The notes below the pieces were generated by a model. That model did no database searches and was not told the DNA's origin. It saw nothing but the letters and a program-made list of their open reading frames with translations. The position numbers and the translations under genes are program-made. Shown here in pieces: positions 3,348 through 13,921 of a stretch of 64,000 nucleotides of DNA. Source of the DNA: Pseudanabaena frigida. GTDB taxonomy: Bacteria; Cyanobacteriota; Cyanobacteriia; Pseudanabaenales; Pseudanabaenaceae. Position 1 is the stretch's first letter. The number at the start of each line of letters is the position of its first letter. The stretch spans positions 1 to 64,000 of the forward strand of contig QBML01000008.1 in the NCBI GenBank assembly GCA_003242085.1. Direction: 5' to 3'.

Positions 3348-3381
3348 AGTCTAAGTTCGCTATTCTTTAAATTAATGTGAT

Positions 3382-3407
3382 GCCAAGTTAATTTTTATTC
3401 ACTTGGC
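3382..3407. terminator. Weak hairpin between convergent genes
   Basis: GCCAAGT at 3382-3388 and ACTTGGC at 3401-3407 form a 7-bp stem around an AT-rich loop. It lies between the convergent exoribonuclease and DUF5615 genes and overlaps the last codons of the latter. A bidirectional terminator is possible but weakly supported. Confidence 0.3.
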
Positions 3408-3740
3408 TGGGCGCACTACACTAATTAATTTGCCTGAAAATGATGACTCTGCCAACATTGTTGCATGAATGCGTTTTGCTAAGCCAAGTCTATCTGAGTC
3501 ATCCGTACAAATAACAATACCTTCATGAATTGGAGCAAAACGATGCAACCGTTTGAAATCCTTACGATTTAATGTTAGTACTAGTCGCTTGTTACTACTG
3601 GCAAATATAAGAACTAGATCGTCAGGAATTTTTAAATTAGCATTTCCTGCTTCTTGGACAGTGAGAACATCATGCCCAAAATCACGTAAGTGTTCTACGA
3701 CCTCAAAGGAAAACTGTTCATCCGTATACAAACGTGCCAT
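3399..3740 (-). CDS. DUF5615 family PIN-like toxin
   Basis: 113 residues beginning MARLYTDEQFSFEVVEHLRD. It has the DUF5615/Mut7-C-type layout: an N-terminal acidic motif (TDEQF), a central DLVLIFASSNKRLVLTLNRKDF segment matching the PIN-like core acidic strand, then HEGIVICTDD. Such proteins are predicted metal-dependent ribonuclease toxins. The start codon overlaps the stop of the upstream DUF433 gene by one base (TAATG), so the two are translationally coupled. The pairing with DUF433 is a recurring toxin-antitoxin arrangement in cyanobacteria. Confidence 0.8.
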   Translation of the reverse strand: MARLYTDEQFSFEVVEHLRDFGHDVLTVQEAGNANLKIPDDLVLIFASSNKRLVLTLNRKDFKRLHRFAPIHEGIVICTDDSDRLGLAKRIHATMLAESSFSGKLISVVRPAK

Positions 3741-4066
3741 TAGTCTTCTTCGTTTTCTTTAATGGCGAGTGCAATTTCTTCAGGATAGGCTGCGGCATAA
3801 ACCCAAGCATTAGCCAAATCAGTTGCGGAGAGAGTTGGATAGTCTTTTAAAAGTTGAGCTTCGCTAATACCTATGTTGCGAGCATTAACTAATACCCATA
3901 CAGGAATGCGAGTTCTAACAATACATGCATCTCCACCGCAGACATTGGGCGTTTTCTCGATTCCCCGCCAAGGACTGCTTAAACTTTGTACTAATATCTG
4001 AATTGCCTGTGCTTTTTCGTTTGCTGTTAGGGCGAGTAGTTGTGGCTCTAGATTTTGAAGTGTCAT
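3740..4066 (-). CDS. DUF433 family antitoxin
   Basis: 108 residues. The C-terminal ~70 residues match DUF433: TPNVCGGDACIVRTRIPVWVLV, then LLKDYPTLSATDLANAWVYAA, a winged-helix-like module. The N-terminal ~35 residues (LTANEKAQAIQILVQSL) form a helical extension often seen on cyanobacterial members. It is the first gene of a two-gene unit with the DUF5615 toxin and is expected to neutralise it and autorepress. The promoter should lie in 4067-4170; no operator could be identified. Confidence 0.8.
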   Translation of the reverse strand: MTLQNLEPQLLALTANEKAQAIQILVQSLSSPWRGIEKTPNVCGGDACIVRTRIPVWVLVNARNIGISEAQLLKDYPTLSATDLANAWVYAAAYPEEIALAIKENEED

Positions 4067-4168
4067 AAAACTCCTACCAACTTAAGAGCATAGGATACTC
4101 AATATTATAAAAGAACAATCTTTCCAAATATTAGGATTGACTGAAATTAAAGCGATCGCAAACTTATC

Positions 4169-4219
4169 ATTATAAAAAAATAGAGTCAGCACAAAGTGCT
4201 GACTCTATTTTTTTATAAT
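4169..4219. repeat. Perfect 24-bp palindromic hairpin
   Basis: Arms 4169-4192 and 4196-4219 are fully complementary around an AAA loop, with the stem containing TAGAGTCAGCAC. Its ends are runs of A and T, so it can terminate transcription in both directions. It lies between the toxin-antitoxin pair and the cinA group. It belongs with the many long hairpins of this window. Confidence 0.8.
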
Positions 4220-4270
4220 TTGATTTTTAATAAGGCAATAAGCGATCGCCCAACATCCCCCCTAACATAA

Positions 4271-4297
4271 TATAAGACCCGCTAAGCGAGTCTTATA
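4271..4297 (-). terminator. Hairpin downstream of the 47-aa ORF
   Basis: TATAAGAC pairs with GTCTTATA, and CGCT pairs with AGCG inside, with one mismatch. It lies 4 bases past the stop of the small minus-strand ORF and is the likely end of the cinA transcript. Confidence 0.55.
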
Positions 4298-4300
4298 ACC

Positions 4301-4444
4301 TTAATGGCGACGGTCGCGGCGTGAGTTATTTCTTACTGGTATAGGAATTAACTCAGGCTGAGGTTGATTTTGACCCAAAAGGGCTTCCAAAACGCGATTT
4401 AGAATTTCGCCGATATCCTGCAATACTTTCTTGATCGCTTTCAC
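4301..4444 (-). CDS. Small basic protein (47 aa) downstream of cinA, unknown
   Basis: GTG start at 4444 with AGGGAG centred about 10 bases upstream, TAA stop at 4301. The product begins (M)KAIKKVLQDIGEILNRVLEA, a plausible amphipathic helix, continues through a Gln/Pro-rich linker (QNQPQPELIPIP) and ends in a very basic tail, RRDRRH. It starts 33 bases after the cinA stop on the same strand and is followed at once by a hairpin, so it looks like the last gene of that transcript. I do not recognise it. The ribosome site, helix pattern and terminator placement support a real gene, but composition alone cannot prove it. Confidence 0.5.
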   Translation of the reverse strand: MKAIKKVLQDIGEILNRVLEALLGQNQPQPELIPIPVRNNSRRDRRH

Positions 4445-4477
4445 TATGCTTGGCTCCCTATCATCATCTAGGTTTAT

Positions 4478-5737
4478 TTAATCAATCATAACAAATCTTT
4501 TCCTAAACAAATCTAAAGCTGAGCTTACAGTTGCCTTTCTGATCCAATTTCTACCCCTAGAGGGACTAAAACGTAACTCGATCGCCTCGACTTTGCCATC
4601 TGGATGCGCGATCCCCACATAAACTAATCCTACAGGTTTTGTCTCCGTACCACCATTTGGCCCAGCGATCCCCGTAATGCTGATCCCCCAGTCCGATTTG
4701 ATTTTAGACTTGACCCCGATCGCCATTTGTTCGGCAACGATCGCACTAACTGCCCCATACCGATCGAGAATTTGGCGATCGACATTTAGTAAATCAACTT
4801 TGACATCATTGCTATAACTGATTACACCGCCGAGAAAATAACTAGAGCTGCCCGATACTTCTGTTAGGGTCTCACCCAGCCATCCGCCTGTGCAGGATTC
4901 AGCAACTGCTAGAGTTTGACCGCGTTCCAGTAAAAGCTTACCTGCCACAGTCGCCAGCGTATCTTCATCAGTACCATAACAAAACTCGCCAGTTAGTTCG
5001 CGGATCTCCGCTTCAACGGGAGCAATTAAGGCGATCGCTTCTTCTTGTGTATTTGCCCTTGCCGTGATCCTGAGCCTTGCTTGTCCGTAGTTAGCATAAG
5101 GTGCAACCGTAGGATTTTTGAGATCGAATAAATGATTGACTTTCGTTGCAAGCGTAGACTCGGCGATGCCCCAGTAGAGCAAAACTTTAGAATGAAATGT
5201 TCCCTGTCCGTAGTTTCTATCTTGCAGTAAAGGTGAAGCGGTTTGCTTCCACATAGGATACATTTCACTGGGTACGCCAGGGAAAGTGAGGATCAATAAA
5301 TTTGGTTGTGGTTCCCAGATCATGCCTGGAGCAGTACCAACGGGATTATGTAAAATCTCTGCGCCCTTGGGCAGTAACGCTTGCTTACGGTTGTTGGCGG
5401 TAAGAGTTCTGCCCGTTTGCGCCGCCATCTGCTGGATACGCTCCCAAATCTCGGGACGTTCCTCGAGCGGTGTATTGAAGAAATTGGCGATCGCCTCAGT
5501 AGTGAGATCGTCAGGTGTGGGGCCAAGCCCGCCAGTAGTGATAATCAAGTTAGAACGGCTGGCAGCAATTTCTAAAGCCTGATGAATGCGATCGGGATTA
5601 TCCCCAACAACGGTTTGATAAAAATGAGGGACTCCCAATAAAGCAAGTTGCTGTGCCAAATACTGGGCATTACTATTAAGAATTTCGCCTAGTAATAGCT
5701 CCGTACCGATACAAAGGATTTCTGCGCCAACACTCAT
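4478..5737 (-). CDS. cinA: CinA family protein (competence/damage-inducible; NMN deamidase domain)
   Basis: 419 residues, the usual length for two-domain CinA. The N-terminal COG1058/MoaB-like domain has GAEILCIGTELLLGEI and the GGLGPTPDD motif. The C-terminal ~165 residues form the nicotinamide-nucleotide amidase (PncC) domain: LAVAESCTGGWLGETLTEV, later GISITGIAGPNGGT. The family handles pyridine nucleotides (NMN deamidation and ADP-ribose pyrophosphatase activities have been reported) and is linked with competence in Gram-positives. It is the third gene of a minus-strand run after rpsP and the KH protein, with a terminator-like hairpin in between. Confidence 0.92.
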   Translation of the reverse strand: MSVGAEILCIGTELLLGEILNSNAQYLAQQLALLGVPHFYQTVVGDNPDRIHQALEIAASRSNLIITTGGLGPTPDDLTTEAIANFFNTPLEERPEIWERIQQMAAQTGRTLTANNRKQALLPKGAEILHNPVGTAPGMIWEPQPNLLILTFPGVPSEMYPMWKQTASPLLQDRNYGQGTFHSKVLLYWGIAESTLATKVNHLFDLKNPTVAPYANYGQARLRITARANTQEEAIALIAPVEAEIRELTGEFCYGTDEDTLATVAGKLLLERGQTLAVAESCTGGWLGETLTEVSGSSSYFLGGVISYSNDVKVDLLNVDRQILDRYGAVSAIVAEQMAIGVKSKIKSDWGISITGIAGPNGGTETKPVGLVYVGIAHPDGKVEAIELRFSPSRGRNWIRKATVSSALDLFRKRFVMID

Positions 5738-5761
5738 ATGCTTGATCTCACTAGTTTCTAC

Positions 5762-5794
5762 AAATAAAAGGGGTGCTTTGCACCCCTTTTATTT
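5762..5794 (-). terminator. Terminator after the KH-domain gene
   Basis: 15-bp perfect stem (AAAAGGGGTGC/GCACCCCTTTT core) with a TTT loop, ending in A/T runs. It begins at the KH-protein stop codon and lies 25 bases before the cinA start, so it probably separates rpsP-khpA from cinA. Confidence 0.75.
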
Positions 5795-6171
5795 TAGTTA
5801 TTGATTTCCCGTTGCTTTGGCTTTTCAACATTGATCCGAGGACGCTCAACTTGGACTTGTTGTCGTTCTGGCTCAGAACGATCTGTATTTCGGTCTTGAT
5901 AATCGTCAGAATTGGCGTTAGGGGTCGGGTCAAAGACTTCAAATCTAGCGTTATGACCAGCTTCTTCGGCCGCGGTCATAACCACTGTCCGAACTGCTTG
6001 GATTGTCCGTCCCCCTTTACCAAAAATTCGCCCCCGATCTTCTGGATCGAAAGCAACTCTGATCCAGACGCGATCGCTTTTGCTATTTGACTCAAAATCT
6101 ACCCGCAAGGCATCTGGATGAGCTAATAATGGCTTCAGCAAAAAACTAATTAAGGCGTTATAGTCTGGCAC
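5794..6171 (-). CDS. KH-domain RNA-binding protein (KhpA-like)
   Basis: The core (PDYNALISFLLKPLLAHPD) followed by WIRVAFDPEDRGRIFGKGGR carries the GxxG loop (GKGG) of a single KH domain, as in KhpA/YlqC. A charged, Arg/Gln/Glu/Pro-rich tail of about 40 residues follows and looks disordered. KhpA proteins bind RNA and sit next to rpsP in many bacteria, as here (gap of 39 bases). I chose GTG 6171 because the family starts just before the PDY motif; TTG 6189 would add six residues (frame ACTTGTGCCA is duplicated there). Neither start has a good ribosome site. Confidence 0.85.
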   Translation of the reverse strand: MPDYNALISFLLKPLLAHPDALRVDFESNSKSDRVWIRVAFDPEDRGRIFGKGGRTIQAVRTVVMTAAEEAGHNARFEVFDPTPNANSDDYQDRNTDRSEPERQQVQVERPRINVEKPKQREINN

Positions 6172-6210
6172 AAGTTTAGATTGGCACAAGTTAGAAATTA
6201 ATTCAGCGAA

Positions 6211-6459
6211 TTAGGCAGTAACGAGATCGAATACCTTAGCTTTTTCAAGGATGCGACGTACTGTGTCGGTAGGTTGAGCACCTTGCTTAATGCGAAGAAC
6301 GATCGCAGGTACATCGAGTTGGGTTTCTTTGGTGCGTGGGTTATAGAAACCAAGCTCGGCGAGGGGACGACCATCGCGACGGCTGGTGCTGTTTACGGCA
6401 ACGATGCGATAGCTGGCTTCAAACTTTTTGCCAAATCGCTTTAATCTCAACTTCATCAT
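6211..6459 (-). CDS. rpsP: 30S ribosomal protein S16
   Basis: 82 residues beginning [20 protein letters not shown], the canonical bS16 N-terminus, with the [14 protein letters not shown] signature. Full length. It assembles early in the small ribosomal subunit. It heads the minus-strand rpsP-KH protein pair; the promoter should be in the 430-base gap upstream. Confidence 0.97.
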
Positions 6460-6619
6460 GGGTTTATGGCTCTAATTTCTGCGTGATTCGGTTCAATATT
6501 TTAGCAGAATTATAATCCTAGCATTATTAGAATATGTTTGAAAAGTATGTGCGAAGTGTTTATTTTTAGATTTTACGATTAGCACGATCGGCGATCGCCT
6601 ACCTGTAACTTGTAAGCGG

Positions 6620-6673
6620 CTTCGGCTCTGCTCAGTCGGCATAAACCCATGATGAAGTTGAGCGGAGCCGAAG
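6620..6673. repeat. Inverted repeat CTTCGGCTCTGCTCA ... TGAGCGGAGCCGAAG
   Basis: 15-base arms (one G.T wobble) separated by 24 bases. It is the only structured element I see in the 6460-6892 spacer between the divergent rpsP and desaturase genes. HIP1 sites flank it. It is probably a dispersed chromosomal repeat; a regulatory role is unproven. Confidence 0.55.
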
Positions 6674-6892
6674 TCTTAGGATTTGTATATCAACGCTCGC
6701 CTGTGATGAGTATCACTACCACACAATCTTGAAGCAAGGACAATCAAAATAACTTAATCCTGAAAGTGATCCTAAAAGTGAGTCTTTAAGTCCGATCGAC
6801 TCAGGCAATCTTAAATAGAGTGAAACTAAAGACTCACGATCGCAAGTTAATCGCAACTTATATTTAATTTACCTTTGAGAATCTCCAAGTCT

Positions 6893-7879
6893 ATGCAAAC
6901 ACAACTATTCTCAGGCAAGGATAATTTGAGGCTTGAGCAAGGCTCTACCCACGAAGAAAAGCCAAAGCTAGATCCCGAACTGCTCAAGCAATTACATAGT
7001 CTCGATCGACACCCTCAACGCTTGCCAATGTTCATTGGTTTATACTCGCTAGCAGCATTTGCAGCTTATGCATTAGTGCATGCGATCGCATCACCTTGGG
7101 TATATCTTCTCTGTTTACCCTTATACCTATTGGCGGCAGCTTCCTTACATGGCATTAGTCTATTTACCCATGAAGGCGTGCATGGAGTTCTAAGTCGCAA
7201 TTTTCATTGGAATCGATGGCTGAGCATCCTTTGTGCATTACCCGTTGGGCAAAACTTTTCAGCTTATAAAGTTCTCCATCTCAAGCATCACAGGCACTTG
7301 GGTGTGAAAGGAGATCCCGATCGTTATAAGAACTATACAAAATGGAATTGGCTCGCATTTTTGATGCATTGGGGCAGATTAATTATTGGCTATCCCGTCT
7401 ATATTATTGCGATTCCGATTCTTGGGTTTTGGCAGGGAAATAAATCAGAACGAGTATGGATTGCGATCGAAGTTGCCTTACTTGGGATATTAGTGACAGC
7501 GGTGCTACGATCTCCTATTCCTTCAGCATTCCTAATTCACGGTTGGCTGATTCCGATGCTTTGGATTAATACAATGGTAAATATTCGCGGCATGAGTCAA
7601 CACACCTTGCTCGAAGATGAAGACGATTTGATTCGCGGAACTCGCACTATTCTCACAATTCCCTTGGTGCGCTTCTTTATGTGTAATGAGAACTATCACT
7701 TAGAACATCATCTCTATCCCGCTGTGCCTTGGTATCATTTACCCCGTCTTCACCAAGAATTGAAGTCAGATCTCGTTCAACAGGGTGCGCCTTACATTCC
7801 TTCTTATTTTTCTTTTGTAAGAGATTTTATCGCTGCCAGTTTTCAGCGTCAGCCCGTCGGTAGTGTCGTGATTAATTGA
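6893..7879 (+). CDS. Membrane fatty-acid-desaturase-type di-iron oxygenase
   Basis: 328 residues from ATG 6893 (a TTG at 6875 is the alternative). The three histidine clusters of the family are present: HEGVH at about 93-97, HLKHHRH at 129-135 and HLEHH at 269-273. Several hydrophobic segments lie between them (about 45-90, 150-180, 190-225). Such enzymes desaturate or hydroxylate lipids or carotenoids using ferredoxin-derived electrons. It heads a four-gene plus-strand run; the next gene starts 11 bases after its stop. The partners (haem-oxygenase-like di-iron enzyme, aminocarboxypropyl transferase, GNAT) suggest a dedicated pathway rather than general lipid desaturation. Substrate unknown. 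Confidence 0.8.
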   Translation: MQTQLFSGKDNLRLEQGSTHEEKPKLDPELLKQLHSLDRHPQRLPMFIGLYSLAAFAAYALVHAIASPWVYLLCLPLYLLAAASLHGISLFTHEGVHGVLSRNFHWNRWLSILCALPVGQNFSAYKVLHLKHHRHLGVKGDPDRYKNYTKWNWLAFLMHWGRLIIGYPVYIIAIPILGFWQGNKSERVWIAIEVALLGILVTAVLRSPIPSAFLIHGWLIPMLWINTMVNIRGMSQHTLLEDEDDLIRGTRTILTIPLVRFFMCNENYHLEHHLYPAVPWYHLPRLHQELKSDLVQQGAPYIPSYFSFVRDFIAASFQRQPVGSVVIN

Positions 7880-7890
7880 GGAGAAAGAGA

Positions 7891-8625
7891 ATGCAAACTT
7901 TAATTAGAAAGCCAATGGCTAATCCTAGAATTCTGCAATATCCTGAATTGATTGTAGAAGACCTTCGCCAGTTGCCATCCTTACAAGCAGCAGTATTGCA
8001 GATATCAGAAGTTTATGACTTTAATTCCCATCCCTACATTCTTTGGATGAAAGATCCTTTGACCGATCGCGATTCTTTTCGTCGCAGTCAATTGCCCTTT
8101 CGCTTTGCGGTTGAGGCTTTTTCCCAACCATTAGCGGCAGTATTAGCGCGAACTGCGCCTCTAGAAGCTCGATTACCCTTACTGGCGAATATTACTGAAG
8201 AACATGGTCATGGCGATCGCTGGCGATCGCATAAATACACCTTTCAGCAATACCTTCATGCCTTGGGCGCAACTGAACTCGAACTAGAGTCTCCTTGCAC
8301 GGTGCCAGTCTTGGCGTTTAATCAATCAATTTTGTCCTATTGTTTGATGCAGTCAGGAGAATCGGGAGCAGCGATGCTGGGAATGATTGAGCATCTCTAT
8401 GTCAGCATAAGCGCCGCGATCGCCAGAACCATAAACCAACGAGGTTGGACTAAAAAGGGTAGTCAATCACACTATGCCGTGCATGAAAAGCTAGATACAG
8501 AGCACGCTAGAGACTTACTGTTATTAGCAGAAGCTAGTTGGATGAACCCGCATTCTCGCTCACAGGTTTTACGGGGCTTAGCACTTGGCGCTCACTATTT
8601 CTGGAGTTTATATCGTGACTTGTAG
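7891..8625 (+). CDS. Iron-containing redox enzyme, haem-oxygenase-like di-iron oxidase fold
   Basis: 244 residues. ATG 7891 is preceded at 6 bases by GAGGAGA. The sequence has the helical pattern of the PqqC/CADD/UndA-like group, with metal-ligand motifs EEHGHGDRWRSH around residue 105 and LDTEHARDLLLLAE near 205. Members oxidise diverse small substrates (fatty acids, amino acids, N-hydroxylations). It lies between a desaturase and a DUF3419 transferase, and its stop overlaps the start of the latter by 11 bases, indicating translational coupling. The exact reaction cannot be read from the sequence. Confidence 0.75.
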   Translation: MQTLIRKPMANPRILQYPELIVEDLRQLPSLQAAVLQISEVYDFNSHPYILWMKDPLTDRDSFRRSQLPFRFAVEAFSQPLAAVLARTAPLEARLPLLANITEEHGHGDRWRSHKYTFQQYLHALGATELELESPCTVPVLAFNQSILSYCLMQSGESGAAMLGMIEHLYVSISAAIARTINQRGWTKKGSQSHYAVHEKLDTEHARDLLLLAEASWMNPHSRSQVLRGLALGAHYFWSLYRDL

Positions 8626-9712
8626 CTCCATCTCAGCAATTGTTTCAGAAATAGCCTTCTCTCAAGTGCGCGAAGATCCTCGGATTGAGTTGCGCGTAAT
8701 TCAAGAGTTAGCCAAGCGTCAGAATCATTCGCTGAGAGTGCTTTTAGTTGCTTCAGGCGGTTGCACGGTTCTAAGTTTGCTCGCCAGTCCTGCGATCGCC
8801 AGAATTGATGCCGTCGATCTCAATCCCGCCCAACTGCATCTCGTGGAACTGCGCCGACAGGCTTTATTACATTTACCTCTAGTCGATCAATTACGATTGA
8901 TTGGTGCAGATAAATCCGCTAGCGATCACGATCGTCTCAGCATCTATGCGAAATTAAGTCCACATTTACCAGCCAGCACAAAAGCATTTTGGGACGCAAG
9001 ACAAAATCAGATAGCGTTTGGAGTAAATCAAGTTGGACGCTTTGAGCAAATGTTTCGCGAACTTGCTGCAAAATTCGCGCAGGTTGGCATCGAGCCTTTG
9101 TCAGAACCATTGACTGCAATTCAGTGTTCTCAATGGCGTAATATCTTTGAACAGGTGTTTGAACGGGATAGACTCATCCAAACATTTGGTGAAGCTGCTG
9201 TTAACTATTCGATGGATCGCAGTTTTGGCGAACATTTTGCCGATGTCTTTGCCCAAGCTTTGCAGCGTTTTATTCCAAATGAGAATTATTTTTTAACCCA
9301 AGTCTGGGGCGATCGCTACACCTCAAATCTCCAAGGCGAAGGAGTTCCTCTTTATCTACAAGCATCTGCTCAAAATGATATTCGCGCATTAGGAACAGAG
9401 CGCTTGCAACTACATCAGGGTGCATTTGTCGATCGCCTTCAACAACTTGCAGAATTAGAAAAATTCGATCTGATTCAATTTTCTAATATCTCAGACTGGA
9501 TGCCTCTGGATAATCTCCATCAAATGCTGATAGATGCTGTCGCTTGCCTGAAGTCGGGTGGTGCAATCATCGGGCGAAGGCTCAATGGCGACCACAATTT
9601 AGAAGCAATTATGGCTGAGCATATTGCTGTCGATCGCCAACTCAGTCAGGAATTGCTTGCTAGCGATCGCTCGTTTTTCTATCGTGAAGTCGTAGTAGGG
9701 TTTCGGTCATGA
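8615..9712 (+). CDS. DUF3419 family SAM-dependent 3-amino-3-carboxypropyl transferase (BtaA-like)
   Basis: 365 residues. The start is GTG 8615, because GGAG at 8603-8606 lies 8 bases upstream; an upstream ATG at 8585 lies inside the previous gene. Family hallmarks are FSQVREDP near the N-terminus, the SAM-binding LLVASGGCTVLSLL and the following DAVDLNPAQLHLVELR. A late motif, LIQFSNISDWMP, occupies the catalytic region. BtaA-type enzymes transfer the aminocarboxypropyl group of SAM, for instance to diacylglycerol in betaine-lipid synthesis. No BtaB-like methyltransferase is nearby, so the product may differ. It overlaps the genes on both sides (11 and 4 bases). Confidence 0.8.
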   Translation: MTCSSISAIVSEIAFSQVREDPRIELRVIQELAKRQNHSLRVLLVASGGCTVLSLLASPAIARIDAVDLNPAQLHLVELRRQALLHLPLVDQLRLIGADKSASDHDRLSIYAKLSPHLPASTKAFWDARQNQIAFGVNQVGRFEQMFRELAAKFAQVGIEPLSEPLTAIQCSQWRNIFEQVFERDRLIQTFGEAAVNYSMDRSFGEHFADVFAQALQRFIPNENYFLTQVWGDRYTSNLQGEGVPLYLQASAQNDIRALGTERLQLHQGAFVDRLQQLAELEKFDLIQFSNISDWMPLDNLHQMLIDAVACLKSGGAIIGRRLNGDHNLEAIMAEHIAVDRQLSQELLASDRSFFYREVVVGFRS

Positions 9713-10512
9713 AGTTTCATCGCATTGAGTTATCCGAACGTTCTTTATTCCAAGCTGGAATCGAAGCGATCGAGCAAACTGCTTTCTATCCTTTAGGGAA
9801 TGATTTCTTTCAACTCGATCATGGTGATAACTACTTTGCTTTTTTCGATCGCCTTGGTGATGTCCATTACTTTGCGGCTCTAGATGGCGAACGGGTAGCA
9901 GCCGTTGGTGCAGGAATATTAAGGGAAGTTCCCTATCGACAAGGTGAGGCTTCTCGTTTAGCTTGGTATCTATGTGATTTAAAAGTACATCCAGACTATC
10001 AGCGGCAACATCTTTCGATGAGGATTTTGCACCATGCTTTGACCTCCTGTATTAGGAAATGCGATCGCGGCTATGCAATTTCCATGAATGCAGGTGATGG
10101 TAAGCCTAATAGACTAGCACGAGTTTATGAGAAGTTTAATCTCGTGCGGTTTCGCTGCTCATCAATATTGGGAATATATAGCGTAGATGCAGAAGTAATG
10201 CGATCGCTTGAACCCACACTGATTAAATATCGCGGTAATATTTCTTATCTGTCCCTACAAGGAATTAAGGATTTAAAACTACAAAGTAATGGACAAAGAC
10301 TGCCCTTGCTTCATGTCCAATGGGGAGAAAATATACAAACAGATACTTCAACTCCGTTAGCTAGTTATACACATATGTTTTGCGTACCAAGTGATGATGA
10401 GCTAGCGATCGATCTTAAGGCAAAAGGGATAGTTCCCAATGCGACTGCTAGTTTAGTCAGTCATGGCATGGAAAAGAGTGATTGGCGCTTTATCCTAACT
10501 AGCGATATTTGA
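9709..10512 (+). CDS. GNAT family N-acetyltransferase, last gene of the biosynthetic operon
   Basis: 267 residues; the start overlaps the DUF3419 stop (ATGA). The GNAT core is visible as WYLCDLKVHPDYQRQHLSMR, where VHPDYQRQHLS is the acetyl-CoA-binding motif A, followed by ARVYEKFNLVRF. An N-terminal segment of ~60 residues and a C-terminal segment of ~90 residues extend beyond the core. The role is presumably acylation of the pathway's intermediate. Coupling to DUF3419 is certain from the overlap; the substrate is not known. Confidence 0.75.
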   Translation: MKFHRIELSERSLFQAGIEAIEQTAFYPLGNDFFQLDHGDNYFAFFDRLGDVHYFAALDGERVAAVGAGILREVPYRQGEASRLAWYLCDLKVHPDYQRQHLSMRILHHALTSCIRKCDRGYAISMNAGDGKPNRLARVYEKFNLVRFRCSSILGIYSVDAEVMRSLEPTLIKYRGNISYLSLQGIKDLKLQSNGQRLPLLHVQWGENIQTDTSTPLASYTHMFCVPSDDELAIDLKAKGIVPNATASLVSHGMEKSDWRFILTSDI

Positions 10513-10544
10513 GTTGTTTGAGCGAAAAATGGCATAAATACGCA

Positions 10545-10964
10545 TTAAAGTAAATTTAATGCCAAGAAATCTTGAACTGTCAAAATCGGGATGTTTTTAA
10601 ACGGATTCAAAATCAGTAAATCCGAGTCTCCACTAACAATGTATGTTGCTTCGCCATTTACTGCTAACTCTAAATATTTATCATCTTTGGGATCTCGACA
10701 AATCTTGACCGTTTCTTCAATATCAACAAACTGTACTGTCTTAATAAGTCTTGCTAGGAGTGACTTTCGCTCTGTTACAGTCAAATATTTGTCAAATTTG
10801 GGTCTAGATAAAACTTCCTCCAATTCTGACAACACCTCTATTGACATTAGTACTACACCATTTGTCTGAGCTTTATCTAGGGCTTGACGTGCTTTGCCTT
10901 CTTTAGCTAGAAATGCACTAACAATAATATTGGCATCAATAACAAACAGGTTTTTAGCGTTCAT
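10545..10964 (-). CDS. PIN-domain toxin, COG1569-type toxin-antitoxin system
   Basis: 139 residues with the PIN acidic residues in order: FVIDANIIVSAF (first Asp), SIEVLSELEEVLSRPKF (Glu), CRDPKDDKYLELA (Asp pair) and YIVSGDSDLL (last Asp). Such toxins are Mg2+-dependent ribonucleases. The start overlaps the upstream antitoxin gene by 11 bases. The length is normal and all catalytic acidic positions are present, so it appears intact. Confidence 0.88.
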   Translation of the reverse strand: MNAKNLFVIDANIIVSAFLAKEGKARQALDKAQTNGVVLMSIEVLSELEEVLSRPKFDKYLTVTERKSLLARLIKTVQFVDIEETVKICRDPKDDKYLELAVNGEATYIVSGDSDLLILNPFKNIPILTVQDFLALNLL

Positions 10965-11178
10965 TGAGAATAGATTCCAAAATTTCTGGAGTTAACCCTC
11001 TTTCTTTAGCTCTGTTGCTAATTTCATCCATCAGTTCTCGTAGCAAATCAATATCTCTATCTACTGGCTTGTGAAGTAAGAGACTAACTATAGCTTGAAT
11101 TTTTTGACGTTCTTGCAAAGATGCAGACTGATATGCTTCTGCAACCTCTCGGCTAACTTCAATAGTAATTTTGTTCAT
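10954..11178 (-). CDS. Antitoxin of the PIN toxin
   Basis: 74 residues. The N-terminus MNKITIEVSREVAEAYQSAS resembles a ribbon-helix-helix-like or related short antitoxin, followed by a helical region ending LLRELMDEISNRAKERGLTPEILESILNER, a C-terminal pattern typical of partners of COG1569 PIN toxins. It is first in the two-gene unit, consistent with conditional cooperativity. The upstream gap (11179-11487) is AT-rich and holds the divergent promoters of this pair and the HEPN gene; I see no clear operator or ORF in it. Confidence 0.75.
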   Translation of the reverse strand: MNKITIEVSREVAEAYQSASLQERQKIQAIVSLLLHKPVDRDIDLLRELMDEISNRAKERGLTPEILESILNER

Positions 11179-11487
11179 AGCTCTATTTTAAATCAATCGT
11201 CTGAACAGTGCTGTAATGATTCTTAACTAAACATAAATGTATAAATTATTTCGTTAAGTAGTTTGTTGTAGTGATTTTTGGATTATCCGTCTTTTTTCTC
11301 TGTATTAAGAAGAGATACTTTAAACTTTGCTTAGGAAGTAACTTGATCGCATTTTCTTCCATTCCACTTTTTTAATAAATTTTCTTTATTTTTAGACTAC
11401 TAGTCACCAAATTGTTTTTTATATTATCATTCATTTTTCGGTATAGTTTGGTAAATAAGCATTGAGACGTATGGAGACAGATATAAA

Positions 11488-12231
11488 GTGACTTTACCAA
11501 TCAACTTGCAAAAAAAGTATATTGATCGTTTTGATGTACTTATCACACAAGGAGAAGTAATTACTCAGAAAATTAGAGAGGATGTTGTTAATCATAGAAC
11601 ATTAACAAGTTCTCCTTCAGTTATGCAATGGAAAACTTGTTGTATATCACTGCTGAGTCAGGTTTTAAAAGGAAGTAATGCTCATAAATACTTGATTGAA
11701 GAATTTGAAGAGATACATATTAGTAATCCTAAAAAAGCTACCAAAGGCTATATTGACATGCTATCCATGTCTGAGGCTGTTGGCAAACTAAAAGCTATCA
11801 AAGATGATTTTGAAAACGGATTTCTAGCTAACTTATCAATGCAAATTGAGGCTGAAATTTCTGCCAATTATATGGAACAGGCAGAACAGCTACTTATTGA
11901 AGGAAAAAGTGGTGCATATGATCATGTTCCAGCAGCAGTTTTAACTGGTGCAGTGTTAGAAAAATCTTTACGCACACTCTGCGATCAGCAAAACCCGCCT
12001 ATTCATACTTTTAAAACAACTGCGAAAGGTTCAGAACCGCTTACATTAAATCCTCTCATTGACGAGCTCAAAAAAGCAGCATTGTTTAATGAATTAAAAG
12101 CTAAACAGTTACGTGCTTGGGCGGATATTCGCAATGCCGCAGCACATGGTGAATTTGATAAATTTTCTCGTTCCGATGTTGAACAAATGATTGAAGGCGT
12201 AAAAAACTTTTTGGCTACCTATATGCTCTAA
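11488..12231 (+). CDS. HEPN-like protein with DUF4145-type C-terminus
   Basis: 247 residues, GTG start at 11488 with GGAG about 12 bases upstream. The C-terminal ~110 residues (VLTGAVLEKSLRTLCD onward) look like a DUF4145/HEPN fold, with IRNAAAHGEF supplying the R-x(4-6)-H motif of HEPN ribonucleases. The N-terminal half is helical and unrecognised. It lacks HIP1 sites and is AT-rich relative to neighbours. It stands alone divergently from a PIN toxin-antitoxin pair, so it may be a stress or defence RNase without a visible partner. Confidence 0.65.
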   Translation: MTLPINLQKKYIDRFDVLITQGEVITQKIREDVVNHRTLTSSPSVMQWKTCCISLLSQVLKGSNAHKYLIEEFEEIHISNPKKATKGYIDMLSMSEAVGKLKAIKDDFENGFLANLSMQIEAEISANYMEQAEQLLIEGKSGAYDHVPAAVLTGAVLEKSLRTLCDQQNPPIHTFKTTAKGSEPLTLNPLIDELKKAALFNELKAKQLRAWADIRNAAAHGEFDKFSRSDVEQMIEGVKNFLATYML

Positions 12232-12325
12232 ACGAACCATCTGAAAATTTGCCTGTGGACTATCTCAAGATTTTGACTCGGAGTGTGATGAGGTAGATGT
12301 TTAGCTTTAAACAGTAATTTATTAA

Positions 12326-13921
12326 ATGAGTCCCAGAATGCAAGATATTTATCAACAAAATATAACTCAAGGTAAAGTTTTTATAGTTGGTGCGGGAATT
12401 GGTGGCGTGGAGTTTTTGACGGTTCGCGCTAGGGATTTGATTAGTGTTGCTGAAGTAATTATTAGTGATGCGCTGGTCGATCGCACTTTATTGGATCTGG
12501 CTCCAGAAAAATGCGATCGCATCATTGCTGGCAAACGTGGCGGACAGGAAAGCATCAAGCAAGCCGAAATCAATCAAATGTTGGTGGATTATTGCTTACA
12601 AGATAAGCGCGTGGTGAGGCTCAAGAGTGGTGATCCTTGGATTTTTGGGCGATCGCTACCTGAGATACTTGCCTTACAAGCAGCAAATTGTGAATGGGAA
12701 GTTGTTGTAGGAATTTCTAGCGCGATCGCTGCACCGATGTTGGCAGGGATTCCGCTTACAGAAGTGGAATCCAGCTCTTGTTTTGCGGTGATGACGGGAC
12801 ATGATTTGGAGCGATTGCCTTGGGAAGCGATCGCCCAAATTCCGACGCTGGTAATTTTGATGGGGACAAATAATCTGGGGGGACTATTAGAGAAATTGCA
12901 AGGGGGAAGATCTGGGGATACAAAAATTGCGATCGTGCGTTGGTGTGGGCGACCTGAGCAGCAGGTATGGACAGGGACTTTGGTGGATATTCAGTCGAAA
13001 TTACCTGAAGGATCGCTCTCGCCTGCGGTGATTGTTGTTGGGGAAGTCGTAAAGTTTCATGAGCAATTGTCCAGTTCGTACGGTAAATCGTTAGAAAATT
13101 TTGAGCAGAGTCCAGAAAAGGAAAAGTTAGCATTGCAAGGCAAAACGATTTTAGTAACAAGGGCGGCGAGTCAGTCTAGCCAATTTTCAGATTTACTTAC
13201 TAGTCAAGGAGCAGAGGCGATCGAGATGCCAACTTTGGCGATCGCTCCGCCGACTAGTTGGGAAATGTTGGATCGGGCGATCGTCGATCTTGCTAGTTAT
13301 GACTGGCTAATTTTGACTTCAGCAAATGCCGTTGAGAGCTTTTTTGGACGCTTGCAACGGGCTGGTAAAGATAGTCGCGCTCTACATTCGCTTAAGGTCG
13401 CGGTAGTCGGACGCAAGACTGCGGAAGTACTGGCAAATTATGGGATTGCGCCAGATTTAGTGCCAACAGATTTTGTTGCCGATGCTTTGGTTGATGCTTT
13501 TCTGGCTATTTCCGATCGTGTTTTAACTGGCAAAAAAATGTTGTTCCCGCGCGTGGAGTCTGGGGGGCGCGAGATTTTGGTGGAGCAGTTGCAACAACAT
13601 GGTGCAATTGTCGATGCTATTCCTGCCTATGAGTCTGGATGCCCTGAAGTGATCGATCCTGTAGCGCTAGCAGCTATTCAAAATCAACGACTCGATGCGA
13701 TCGCCTTTGCTAGCTCCAAAACGGTGAAGCATTTTTGCCAATTACTAGAGCGTACTGCTTCTACCGATACTTGGAAATCATGGATTGCCAAAGCAAAAAT
13801 CGCTTCGATTGGCCCCCAAACATCTAAGACTTGCTACGAGTTGTTAGGGCGAGTTGATTGTGAAGCAGTGGAATATACCCTTGATGGTCTGGTTACGGTG
13901 ATTAGAGAAAGTTTTAGATAA
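12326..13921 (+). CDS. Fused uroporphyrinogen-III C-methyltransferase / uroporphyrinogen-III synthase
   Basis: 531 residues in two modules. Residues ~15-245 are a CobA/SUMT domain: VFIVGAGIGGVEFLTVRA, VVRLKSGDPWIFGRS and the later VVVGEVV. Residues ~270-530 are a HemD domain: ILVTRAASQSSQFSDLL, DWLILTSANAVESFF, and IAFASSKTVKHF. SUMT methylates uroporphyrinogen III toward sirohaem and cobalamin; HemD cyclises hydroxymethylbilane. The fusion joins two consecutive steps at the branch point from haem and chlorophyll. ATG 12326 is used; ATG 12338 is an alternative. No neighbour belongs to the pathway. Confidence 0.9.
   Translation: MSPRMQDIYQQNITQGKVFIVGAGIGGVEFLTVRARDLISVAEVIISDALVDRTLLDLAPEKCDRIIAGKRGGQESIKQAEINQMLVDYCLQDKRVVRLKSGDPWIFGRSLPEILALQAANCEWEVVVGISSAIAAPMLAGIPLTEVESSSCFAVMTGHDLERLPWEAIAQIPTLVILMGTNNLGGLLEKLQGGRSGDTKIAIVRWCGRPEQQVWTGTLVDIQSKLPEGSLSPAVIVVGEVVKFHEQLSSSYGKSLENFEQSPEKEKLALQGKTILVTRAASQSSQFSDLLTSQGAEAIEMPTLAIAPPTSWEMLDRAIVDLASYDWLILTSANAVESFFGRLQRAGKDSRALHSLKVAVVGRKTAEVLANYGIAPDLVPTDFVADALVDAFLAISDRVLTGKKMLFPRVESGGREILVEQLQQHGAIVDAIPAYESGCPEVIDPVALAAIQNQRLDAIAFASSKTVKHFCQLLERTASTDTWKSWIAKAKIASIGPQTSKTCYELLGRVDCEAVEYTLDGLVTVIRESFR

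Follow-up and report, generated by a model that had tools for sequence, protein, structure and literature searches.

A separate DUF3419 clade linked to a di-iron oxidase and a tandem GNAT in five bacterial phyla: a candidate pathway around the aminocarboxypropyl group of S-adenosylmethionine

What might be made by a gene cluster in which a relative of the betaine-lipid enzyme BtaA is accompanied by a di-iron oxidase and an acyltransferase? The question is raised by positions 6893-10512 of a 64,000-nucleotide stretch of Pseudanabaena frigida DNA (contig QBML01000008.1, positions 1 to 64,000; hereafter the window), where four genes lie head to tail on the plus strand, encoding a desaturase (DES), a haem-oxygenase-like di-iron oxidase (HDO), a DUF3419 protein, and a GNAT. 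The last three genes (the trio) occur together in 31 loci from five bacterial phyla, and we regard it as an evenly balanced judgment that the cassette is a short pathway dedicated to making a secondary metabolite or signal, with the 3-amino-3-carboxypropyl group derived from S-adenosylmethionine (SAM) at its center. A preliminary description of this DNA had listed the four genes, their families, and spacings of +11, -11, and -4 bases, all of which are borne out by the open reading frame (ORF) coordinates and by Pfam matches, as follows.

6893 to 7879, plus strand: DES, membrane desaturase/hydroxylase-type protein (FA_desaturase PF00487, 1.9e-40); accessory cassette member.
7891 to 8625, plus strand: HDO, haem-oxygenase-like di-iron oxidase (Haem_oxygenas_2 PF14518, 3.6e-18); core member.
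8615 to 9712, plus strand: DUF3419 (BtaA-type) protein, putative 3-amino-3-carboxypropyl transferase (3.8e-39), of a clade with a [VT]RED motif; core member.
9709 to 10512, plus strand: GNAT, tandem and N-myristoyltransferase-like (Acetyltransf_1, 3.8e-5); core member.

The DES stop at 7879 is followed by the HDO ATG at 7891 (+11), the HDO stop at 8625 lies beyond the DUF3419 GTG at 8615 (-11; a start chosen here, the ORF list giving a longer TTG start at 8585), and the DUF3419 stop at 9712 overlaps the GNAT ATG at 9709 in a shared ATGA (-4). Judged by this spacing, the four genes are probably co-transcribed. Neither promoter-like sites (4, against a mean of 9.1) nor terminator-like sites (3, against 3.7) exceeded those in shuffled sequences, Rfam gave zero matches at gathering score within 4000-12500, and the upstream regions of six related loci were hardly alignable.

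The evidence that these genes belong together comes from their distribution. The 31 trio loci comprise 13 cyanobacterial, 11 planctomycete (9 of them from genomes of the phylum of Candidatus Uabimicrobium), 5 verrucomicrobial, 1 chloroflexotal, and 1 actinomycetotal (mycobacterial) locus. They were collected from a scan of a genome collection with a DUF3419 alignment (26 loci), from a Mycobacterium riyadhense plasmid, and from planctomycete-phylum additions, and were compared by matching the window proteins to them and clustering the neighbor genes; some are near-identical copies (L059/L061 and several Pseudanabaena). The trio is found in the orders HDO-DUF3419-GNAT, DUF3419-GNAT-HDO, and DUF3419-HDO-GNAT, and, when DES is included, also as HDO-DES-DUF3419-GNAT and DES-DUF3419-GNAT-HDO; other cyanobacterial families retain the DES-HDO-DUF3419-GNAT order of the window, at 57-76% identity. 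Flanking genes vary between the inspected loci, in which no constant extra gene was noticed beside the trio (10 neighbors were scanned with Pfam, and planctomycete neighbors were listed only). Membership that is kept while order and flanks change speaks for a functional unit and not for simple descent. The preliminary description had named absence of co-conservation beyond close relatives as grounds for its own refutation; the genes proved to be co-conserved in other cyanobacterial families and, as the trio, in five phyla.

In 386 genomes of the cyanobacterial phylum, DUF3419 matches at E<=1e-3 were found in 23 and close ones (E below 1e-60) in 5, HDO matches at E<=1e-10 in 5, GNAT matches at E<=1e-10 in 4, and DES matches at E<=1e-30 in 6. 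The close homologs coincide: all four genes have them in G000, G193, G008, and G091, which are 4 of these 386 genomes and represent three families, and there they are adjacent and in identical order. Exceptions include G044, with a 38% identical DUF3419 protein and none of the other three genes, and G199, with a 37% identical DES. Within the genus Pseudanabaena, the closest named relatives carrying the cassette, the DUF3419 gene is present in 9 of 26 genomes, and the cassette is thus patchy. Such patchiness ill suits a core RNA modification and so bears on the idea that the aminocarboxypropyl group is placed on a tRNA or rRNA nucleotide or on a peptide residue and then tailored by the other enzymes. 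Aminocarboxypropyl transfers to RNA are indeed described in passages of PMC10491745, and export or activation genes are not constantly linked in the inspected loci; none of the four proteins, however, has an RNA-binding domain recognized by Pfam (no systematic search was made for a precursor peptide), and we consider macromolecule modification very improbable.

Outside the cyanobacteria, the M. riyadhense plasmid is annotated as DUF3419 - iron-containing redox enzyme - GNAT - RND transporter, its HDO being 36% identical to that of the window and its GNAT 34% identical to an Akkermansiaceae protein. The DUF3419 frame is broken in this record and in locus L118, with the VRED motif visible in another frame of each, and the DUF3419 and GNAT genes of Uabimicrobium are separated by a 504-residue ORF that has no Pfam match. 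When 294 planctomycete-phylum genomes were queried with the Akkermansiaceae HDO, 47 matched at E<=1e-3; the best 16 loci (15 genomes) outside Uabimicrobium among these comprise 9 trio loci, 1 with DUF3419 and HDO at a contig end, and 6 with an HDO lacking partners in the stretch. Furthermore, pairwise distances correlate between the three proteins (DUF3419/HDO, 0.905; DUF3419/GNAT, 0.886; HDO/GNAT, 0.773; n=25 trio loci), with 0 of 5000 permutations as high (p 2e-4); L118, with its broken frame, and L041, L042, L045, L050, and L061, which are close to kept rows, were left out.

DES is accessory and lies outside the cassette core. Twelve of the 13 trio loci from cyanobacteria have it linked (in the remaining one, L046, the contig begins just before HDO), as do all 5 verrucomicrobial loci. 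The Uabimicrobium trio has no adjoining DES, and a 58% identical relative of the Akkermansiaceae DES is located about 0.5 Mb away. No close DES ortholog was found in the 10 planctomycete-phylum genomes (9 with the trio and 1 with the partial locus at a contig end; best match 31%, 2.7e-18), in the Gemmataceae genome (best 1.5e-9), or in the Chloroflexi genome (no match). The earlier proposal that the four genes form one complete pathway is partly supported: the genes behave as a functional unit with the co-conserved trio as its core, and the four together may or may not be the complete pathway.

Is the DUF3419 enzyme simply BtaA? Its membership in PF11899 is clear (135.4 bits, against a cut-off of 28.2), and it shares with BtaA the methyltransferase fold, the SGG and DxN motifs, and a predicted aminocarboxypropyl transfer. 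In a 56-row tree, however, 30 trio rows, 4 partial rows, and the partnerless L053 and L054 lie on one side of a 100/99 branch, and the remaining 20 rows lie opposite, including L064 and L080 with a BtaB-type methyltransferase next door (the BtaA and BtaB names are our own reading of records that say DUF3419 and class I methyltransferase). The tree was built without L118, which is too short, and without L007, L008, and L010, duplicates of L034, L036, and L037. The motifs divide likewise in a table without L118: the position of W in WED is R ([VT]RED) in 29/29 trio rows and 3/3 partial rows covering it, and the 25 other rows, which include 3 duplicates, have W in 20, D in 3, and N in 2. At the final position of SGGxN, 29 of the 30 trio rows carry T and one carries S; the 25 others carry N (20 rows), R (4), or V (1). 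One genome, G008, holds both the cassette enzyme and a second DUF3419 protein of the WED type. The AlphaFold model of the window protein (predicted local distance difference test score, pLDDT, 92.6) shows a methyltransferase fold into which a large and mainly helical segment is inserted; in the fold search many methyltransferases scored Z 11.5-12.8 without a standout, and the nicotianamine synthase MtNAS was weak, at rank 25. In 14 partnerless DUF3419 loci, 12 outside the clade (L033-L039, L064, L067, L080, L082, and L083) and 2 inside it (L053 and L054), no HDO match was found within stretches of 3.3 to 16 kb.

BtaA-type loci have a methyltransferase gene next door, whereas no BtaB is adjacent to the cassette and none that is convincing was found in the genome with the BtaB-type protein of L064 as query. 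The best genome match reached 1.8e-5, with 29% identity over query residues 29-143. It has accordingly become extremely improbable that the locus makes ordinary betaine lipid (diacylglyceryl-trimethylhomoserine, DGTS) with a BtaB encoded elsewhere and three unrelated passenger genes. Membership in the DUF3419 family and the methyltransferases partly similar to the BtaB-type protein speak for it, but the separate clade with its motifs, the coexistence of both types in G008, and the lack of a convincing BtaB argue against it, and passengers would not recur in five phyla; DGTS was rejected on clade, motifs, and BtaB. The earlier statement that betaine-lipid synthesis would need a BtaB methyltransferase, absent here, is supported; the partners of the cassette enzyme are HDO and GNAT.

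Other DUF3419 proteins depart from the BtaA pattern in their own ways. A divergent cyanobacterial group (L020, L022, and L023) has DED for WED and GSGCR for SGGCN. On Rhizobium plasmid pMK-2 (L067, 1-6146), DUF3419 shares an operon with a ketoacyl synthase III, an NAD-dependent epimerase-like protein, an MBL-fold protein, a "CoF synthetase," and a protein of 368 residues that has no Pfam match; this gene set suggests other non-betaine uses of DUF3419. A Roseinatronobacter plasmid (L082, 523-8507) carries a DUF3419 operon with a UbiA prenyltransferase, a phosphoenolpyruvate (PEP)/pyruvate-binding protein, two uncharacterized proteins, and an AMP-binding enzyme. In Sinorhizobium meliloti Ak57 (L066, about 3350-4615), a broken BtaA-type frame lies upstream of an intact methyltransferase gene.

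The HDO belongs by sequence to the same fold family as CADD, BesC, and HrmI. Among Protein Data Bank (PDB) structures, CADD and 4-aminobenzoate synthase come closest to it, followed by BesC and HrmI, and the 5 PDB matches do not include the fatty-acid decarboxylase UndA. The 3-His/3-carboxylate ligand set assigned by alignment with CADD (E104, H114, E167, H198, D202, and H205) is intact in 39/39 aligned homologs, a 40th sequence (L125) being incomplete and excluded. Ser174, His194, and Tyr195 are likewise found in 39/39, and Tyr49 is Tyr in 38/39. We take CADD Lys152 to be the amine donor and CADD Tyr27 to be self-sacrificed. The position aligned to Lys152 is Ile in 37/39 homologs and Leu and Thr in the others, never Lys; that aligned to Tyr27 is Tyr in 1/39 (L055), although Tyr49 immediately precedes it, such that a one-residue alignment shift would matter. 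The HDO thus looks like a full di-iron enzyme that is not a CADD-type 4-aminobenzoate (pABA) synthase. The possibility that it is one, with the cassette feeding a folate-related or aminobenzoate-derived product, would draw on the nearest solved structures and on a match to the CADD model TIGR04305, but that match is below cut-off (30.7 bits, against 200) and the lysine and tyrosine positions do not fit, which leaves it with scarcely any probability; pABA synthase identity was rejected on the lysine position. The HDO of L057 is below the cut-off of the BesC model. According to parts of a 2026 review, the substrates of characterized HDOs are predominantly fatty or amino acids (PMC13108848).

Cassette-type HDOs without partners in their stretches (L113, L115, L116, L117, L120, L140, and L097) come from planctomycete-phylum genomes, one cyanobacterium, and a Streptomyces plasmid (1 of 6 Streptomyces plasmid records opened) and suggest a use independent of DUF3419. 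Another, in L124 (6421-9482), is 51% identical to the window HDO, partnerless in its stretch, and divergent from an ORF that is RND/MmpL-like by eye.

Pfam detects only the first domain of the GNAT, with a marginal score. The structural model (pLDDT 89.3) predicts a tandem GNAT fold that aligns over its full length with N-myristoyltransferases (NMTs) and equally well with a few other tandem GNATs; its match to the NMT 6pau_A, for instance, has a Z score of 14.1, with 4.1 Å over 221 residues. Sequence identity to NMT and tandem GNATs is 5-8%, and the cassette GNAT is shorter. In the model alignment, residue 267, with which the protein ends, is paired with the final aligned residue of the NMT entries (residue 496 for human NMT1). 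The C-terminal residue is Ile in 33/33 GNAT homologs, preceded by D or E in 32 and by Q in one; at the same loci, the last residue is of 12 kinds in DUF3419, 11 in HDO, and 7 in DES. Passages of PMC7048800 describe the C-terminal carboxylate of Gln496 in human NMT1 as the catalytic base and an enzyme three residues shorter as barely active. Taken together, the invariant Ile and the alignment with the NMT end suggest, by analogy, that the C-terminal carboxylate of the GNAT may serve as catalytic base.

DES belongs to the PF00487 superfamily by its profile match and by three His boxes (HExVHG, HLxHH, and NENYHLEHH), each conserved in every homolog covering it (18 or 19 of 19). For all four cassette DES proteins scanned (that of the window and three others), the best-scoring curated NCBIfam family is GntB, the L-arginine gamma-hydroxylase of guanitoxin synthesis, also of PF00487; scores are 73-92 bits (window, 73.4), below the NF041365 cut-off of 380, and the gene setting differs. 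Carotenoid hydroxylase or ketolase follows, with the acyl desaturases DesA/DesB lower or unscored. Six distant plasmid relatives were opened out of 300 matching records: two adjoin a MocE ferredoxin (Moc-type), one is GntB-like and stands beside a LysE transporter, one Leptolyngbya gene stands beside a hydrolase, and two are unannotated; none of the six is identifiable as RtxC. The LysE and MocE neighbors weakly suggest small polar substrates. The GntB-like desaturase-family gene next to the LysE-family transporter (255 bits, against 380) is on the Staphylococcus epidermidis plasmid SAP105A (L149, 4779-6375), which carries cadmium and mercury resistance genes.

How could these enzymes act together? 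The reactions, their order, the acceptor, the acyl donor, and the product that we infer are as follows. The DUF3419 enzyme would move the aminocarboxypropyl group from SAM to an acceptor and so release methylthioadenosine; the acceptor is probably an OH or NH group on a small molecule that resembles an amino acid. The HDO would use O2 to oxidize the amino-acid part, by desaturation, C-C cleavage, or N-oxygenation, and the GntB-like DES would add a hydroxylation or desaturation as an optional step in cyanobacteria and Verrucomicrobiota. The tandem GNAT, with its C-terminal carboxylate as base, would acylate an amine, for which the simplest choice is the alpha-amine on the newly added aminocarboxypropyl arm. 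The product is probably an amino-acid-like small molecule; the balance tilts this way because the nearest characterized relatives of both DES and HDO have amino acids or protein residues as substrates, not acyl lipids.

Several observations weigh against this pathway. The one DUF3419 activity that we know of is transfer to diacylglycerol, which leaves room for a lipid acceptor. An MmpL/RND transporter gene lies next to the mycobacterial trio, and such transporters often export lipids. NMT entries (Z 13.3-14.1) are tied with the tandem GNATs 4zm6 (14.3), 3ddd (13.6), and 2wpw (13.6) in the fold search. The distribution has gaps: 6 of the 16 planctomycete loci hold a partnerless HDO (two of their stretches being contigs of 3.4 and 7.3 kb), the cyanobacterium G062 has a 57% identical HDO among unrelated neighbors, without DUF3419 or GNAT, plus a 38% identical DES, and a clade-type DUF3419 occurs without a detectable HDO in L065 and L044, from Chthoniobacteraceae and Pseudanabaena draft genomes (in such drafts, L044 lacks the start of its DUF3419 gene and the HDO match of L043 holds one stop codon). 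The distance correlations partly reflect species relatedness, for which they are uncorrected. Finally, according to passages of PMC7048800, human NMT1 shortened by two residues keeps turnover via a glutamate, and a C-terminal base therefore need not be essential.

Some of these points would be accommodated by a lipid pathway, in which a BtaA-like homoserine ether lipid made from diacylglycerol is N-acylated by the GNAT instead of N-methylated and is oxidized by HDO and DES to a non-betaine homoserine lipid. The resemblance of DUF3419 to BtaA, the MmpL/RND transporter of the mycobacterial locus, the RND-like ORF (by eye only) beside the lone L124 HDO, and the use of long acyl-CoA by NMT itself all point in this direction. 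On the other hand, the cassette DUF3419 proteins form a clade apart from BtaA with altered motifs, DES scores best against an amino-acid hydroxylase and lower against DesA/DesB, and the HDO is nearest to CADD-type structures, then BesC and HrmI, with UndA not among its matches. We consider the lipid pathway unlikely.

A narrower form of the amino-acid-like pathway would yield a new class of N-acylated O-alkyl homoserines, for which we see a slim chance. Here, DUF3419 would join a hydroxylated metabolite to the aminocarboxypropyl arm through an ether bond. HDO, DES, or both would desaturate the arm, giving an enol-ether vinylglycine like that of rhizobitoxine, or would strip off its carboxylate, with an alkene or nitrile remaining. 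The GNAT would use its C-terminal base to cap the alpha-amine, as self-protection or as the final step. If so, five phyla would share an oxyvinylglycine-type family that arises by direct alkylation with SAM; we know of no earlier family of this type made in that way. The likeness to the rhizobitoxine pathway is drawn by analogy only. RtxC is of the fatty-acid-desaturase family and acts on O-alkyl homoserine, and to our knowledge the pathway contains no HDO, DUF3419, or GNAT. Rhizobitoxine, in the portion of PMC6304460 consulted, is an enol-ether amino acid made by a desaturase, the dihydrorhizobitoxine desaturase RtxC. A link to FVG-type clusters was dropped; the main text of the gvg paper has neither "heme oxygenase" nor "iron-containing redox."

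No pathway with this gene set was found in the literature searched, whose coverage leaves out most subscription journals and all preprints, in agreement with the preliminary description, which had known of none. In the papers found, DUF3419 appears only with betaine lipids or in algal and fungal surveys, and the main text of the HDO review (PMC13108848) contains neither "aminocarboxypropyl" nor "S-adenosyl." The individual enzyme families are already known; the DUF3419 clade, the gene combination, and its spread appear undescribed in the literature searched. A second DUF3419 clade that recurs beside a di-iron oxidase and an acyltransferase points to an unrecognized use of the aminocarboxypropyl group of SAM in distant bacteria, and HDOs are a growing source of unusual amino-acid chemistry, as parts of the same review state (PMC13108848). 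The three-gene core, being without large synthetases, is small enough for reconstitution in a single experiment, and the fixed last residue of the GNAT offers a bacterial test case for the C-terminal-base mechanism of NMT.

As for the surroundings, the window lies on contig 66 of a 5.39 Mb genome, and the ORFs upstream of the cassette read as CinA-like and ribosomal-protein-like. Farther downstream, at 11488-12231 on the plus strand, there are weak HEPN/DUF4145 matches, below cut-offs. Just downstream of the cassette and convergent to it, at 10545-10964 on the minus strand, lies a PIN-family toxin-like gene that matches TIGR00305 above its cut-off.

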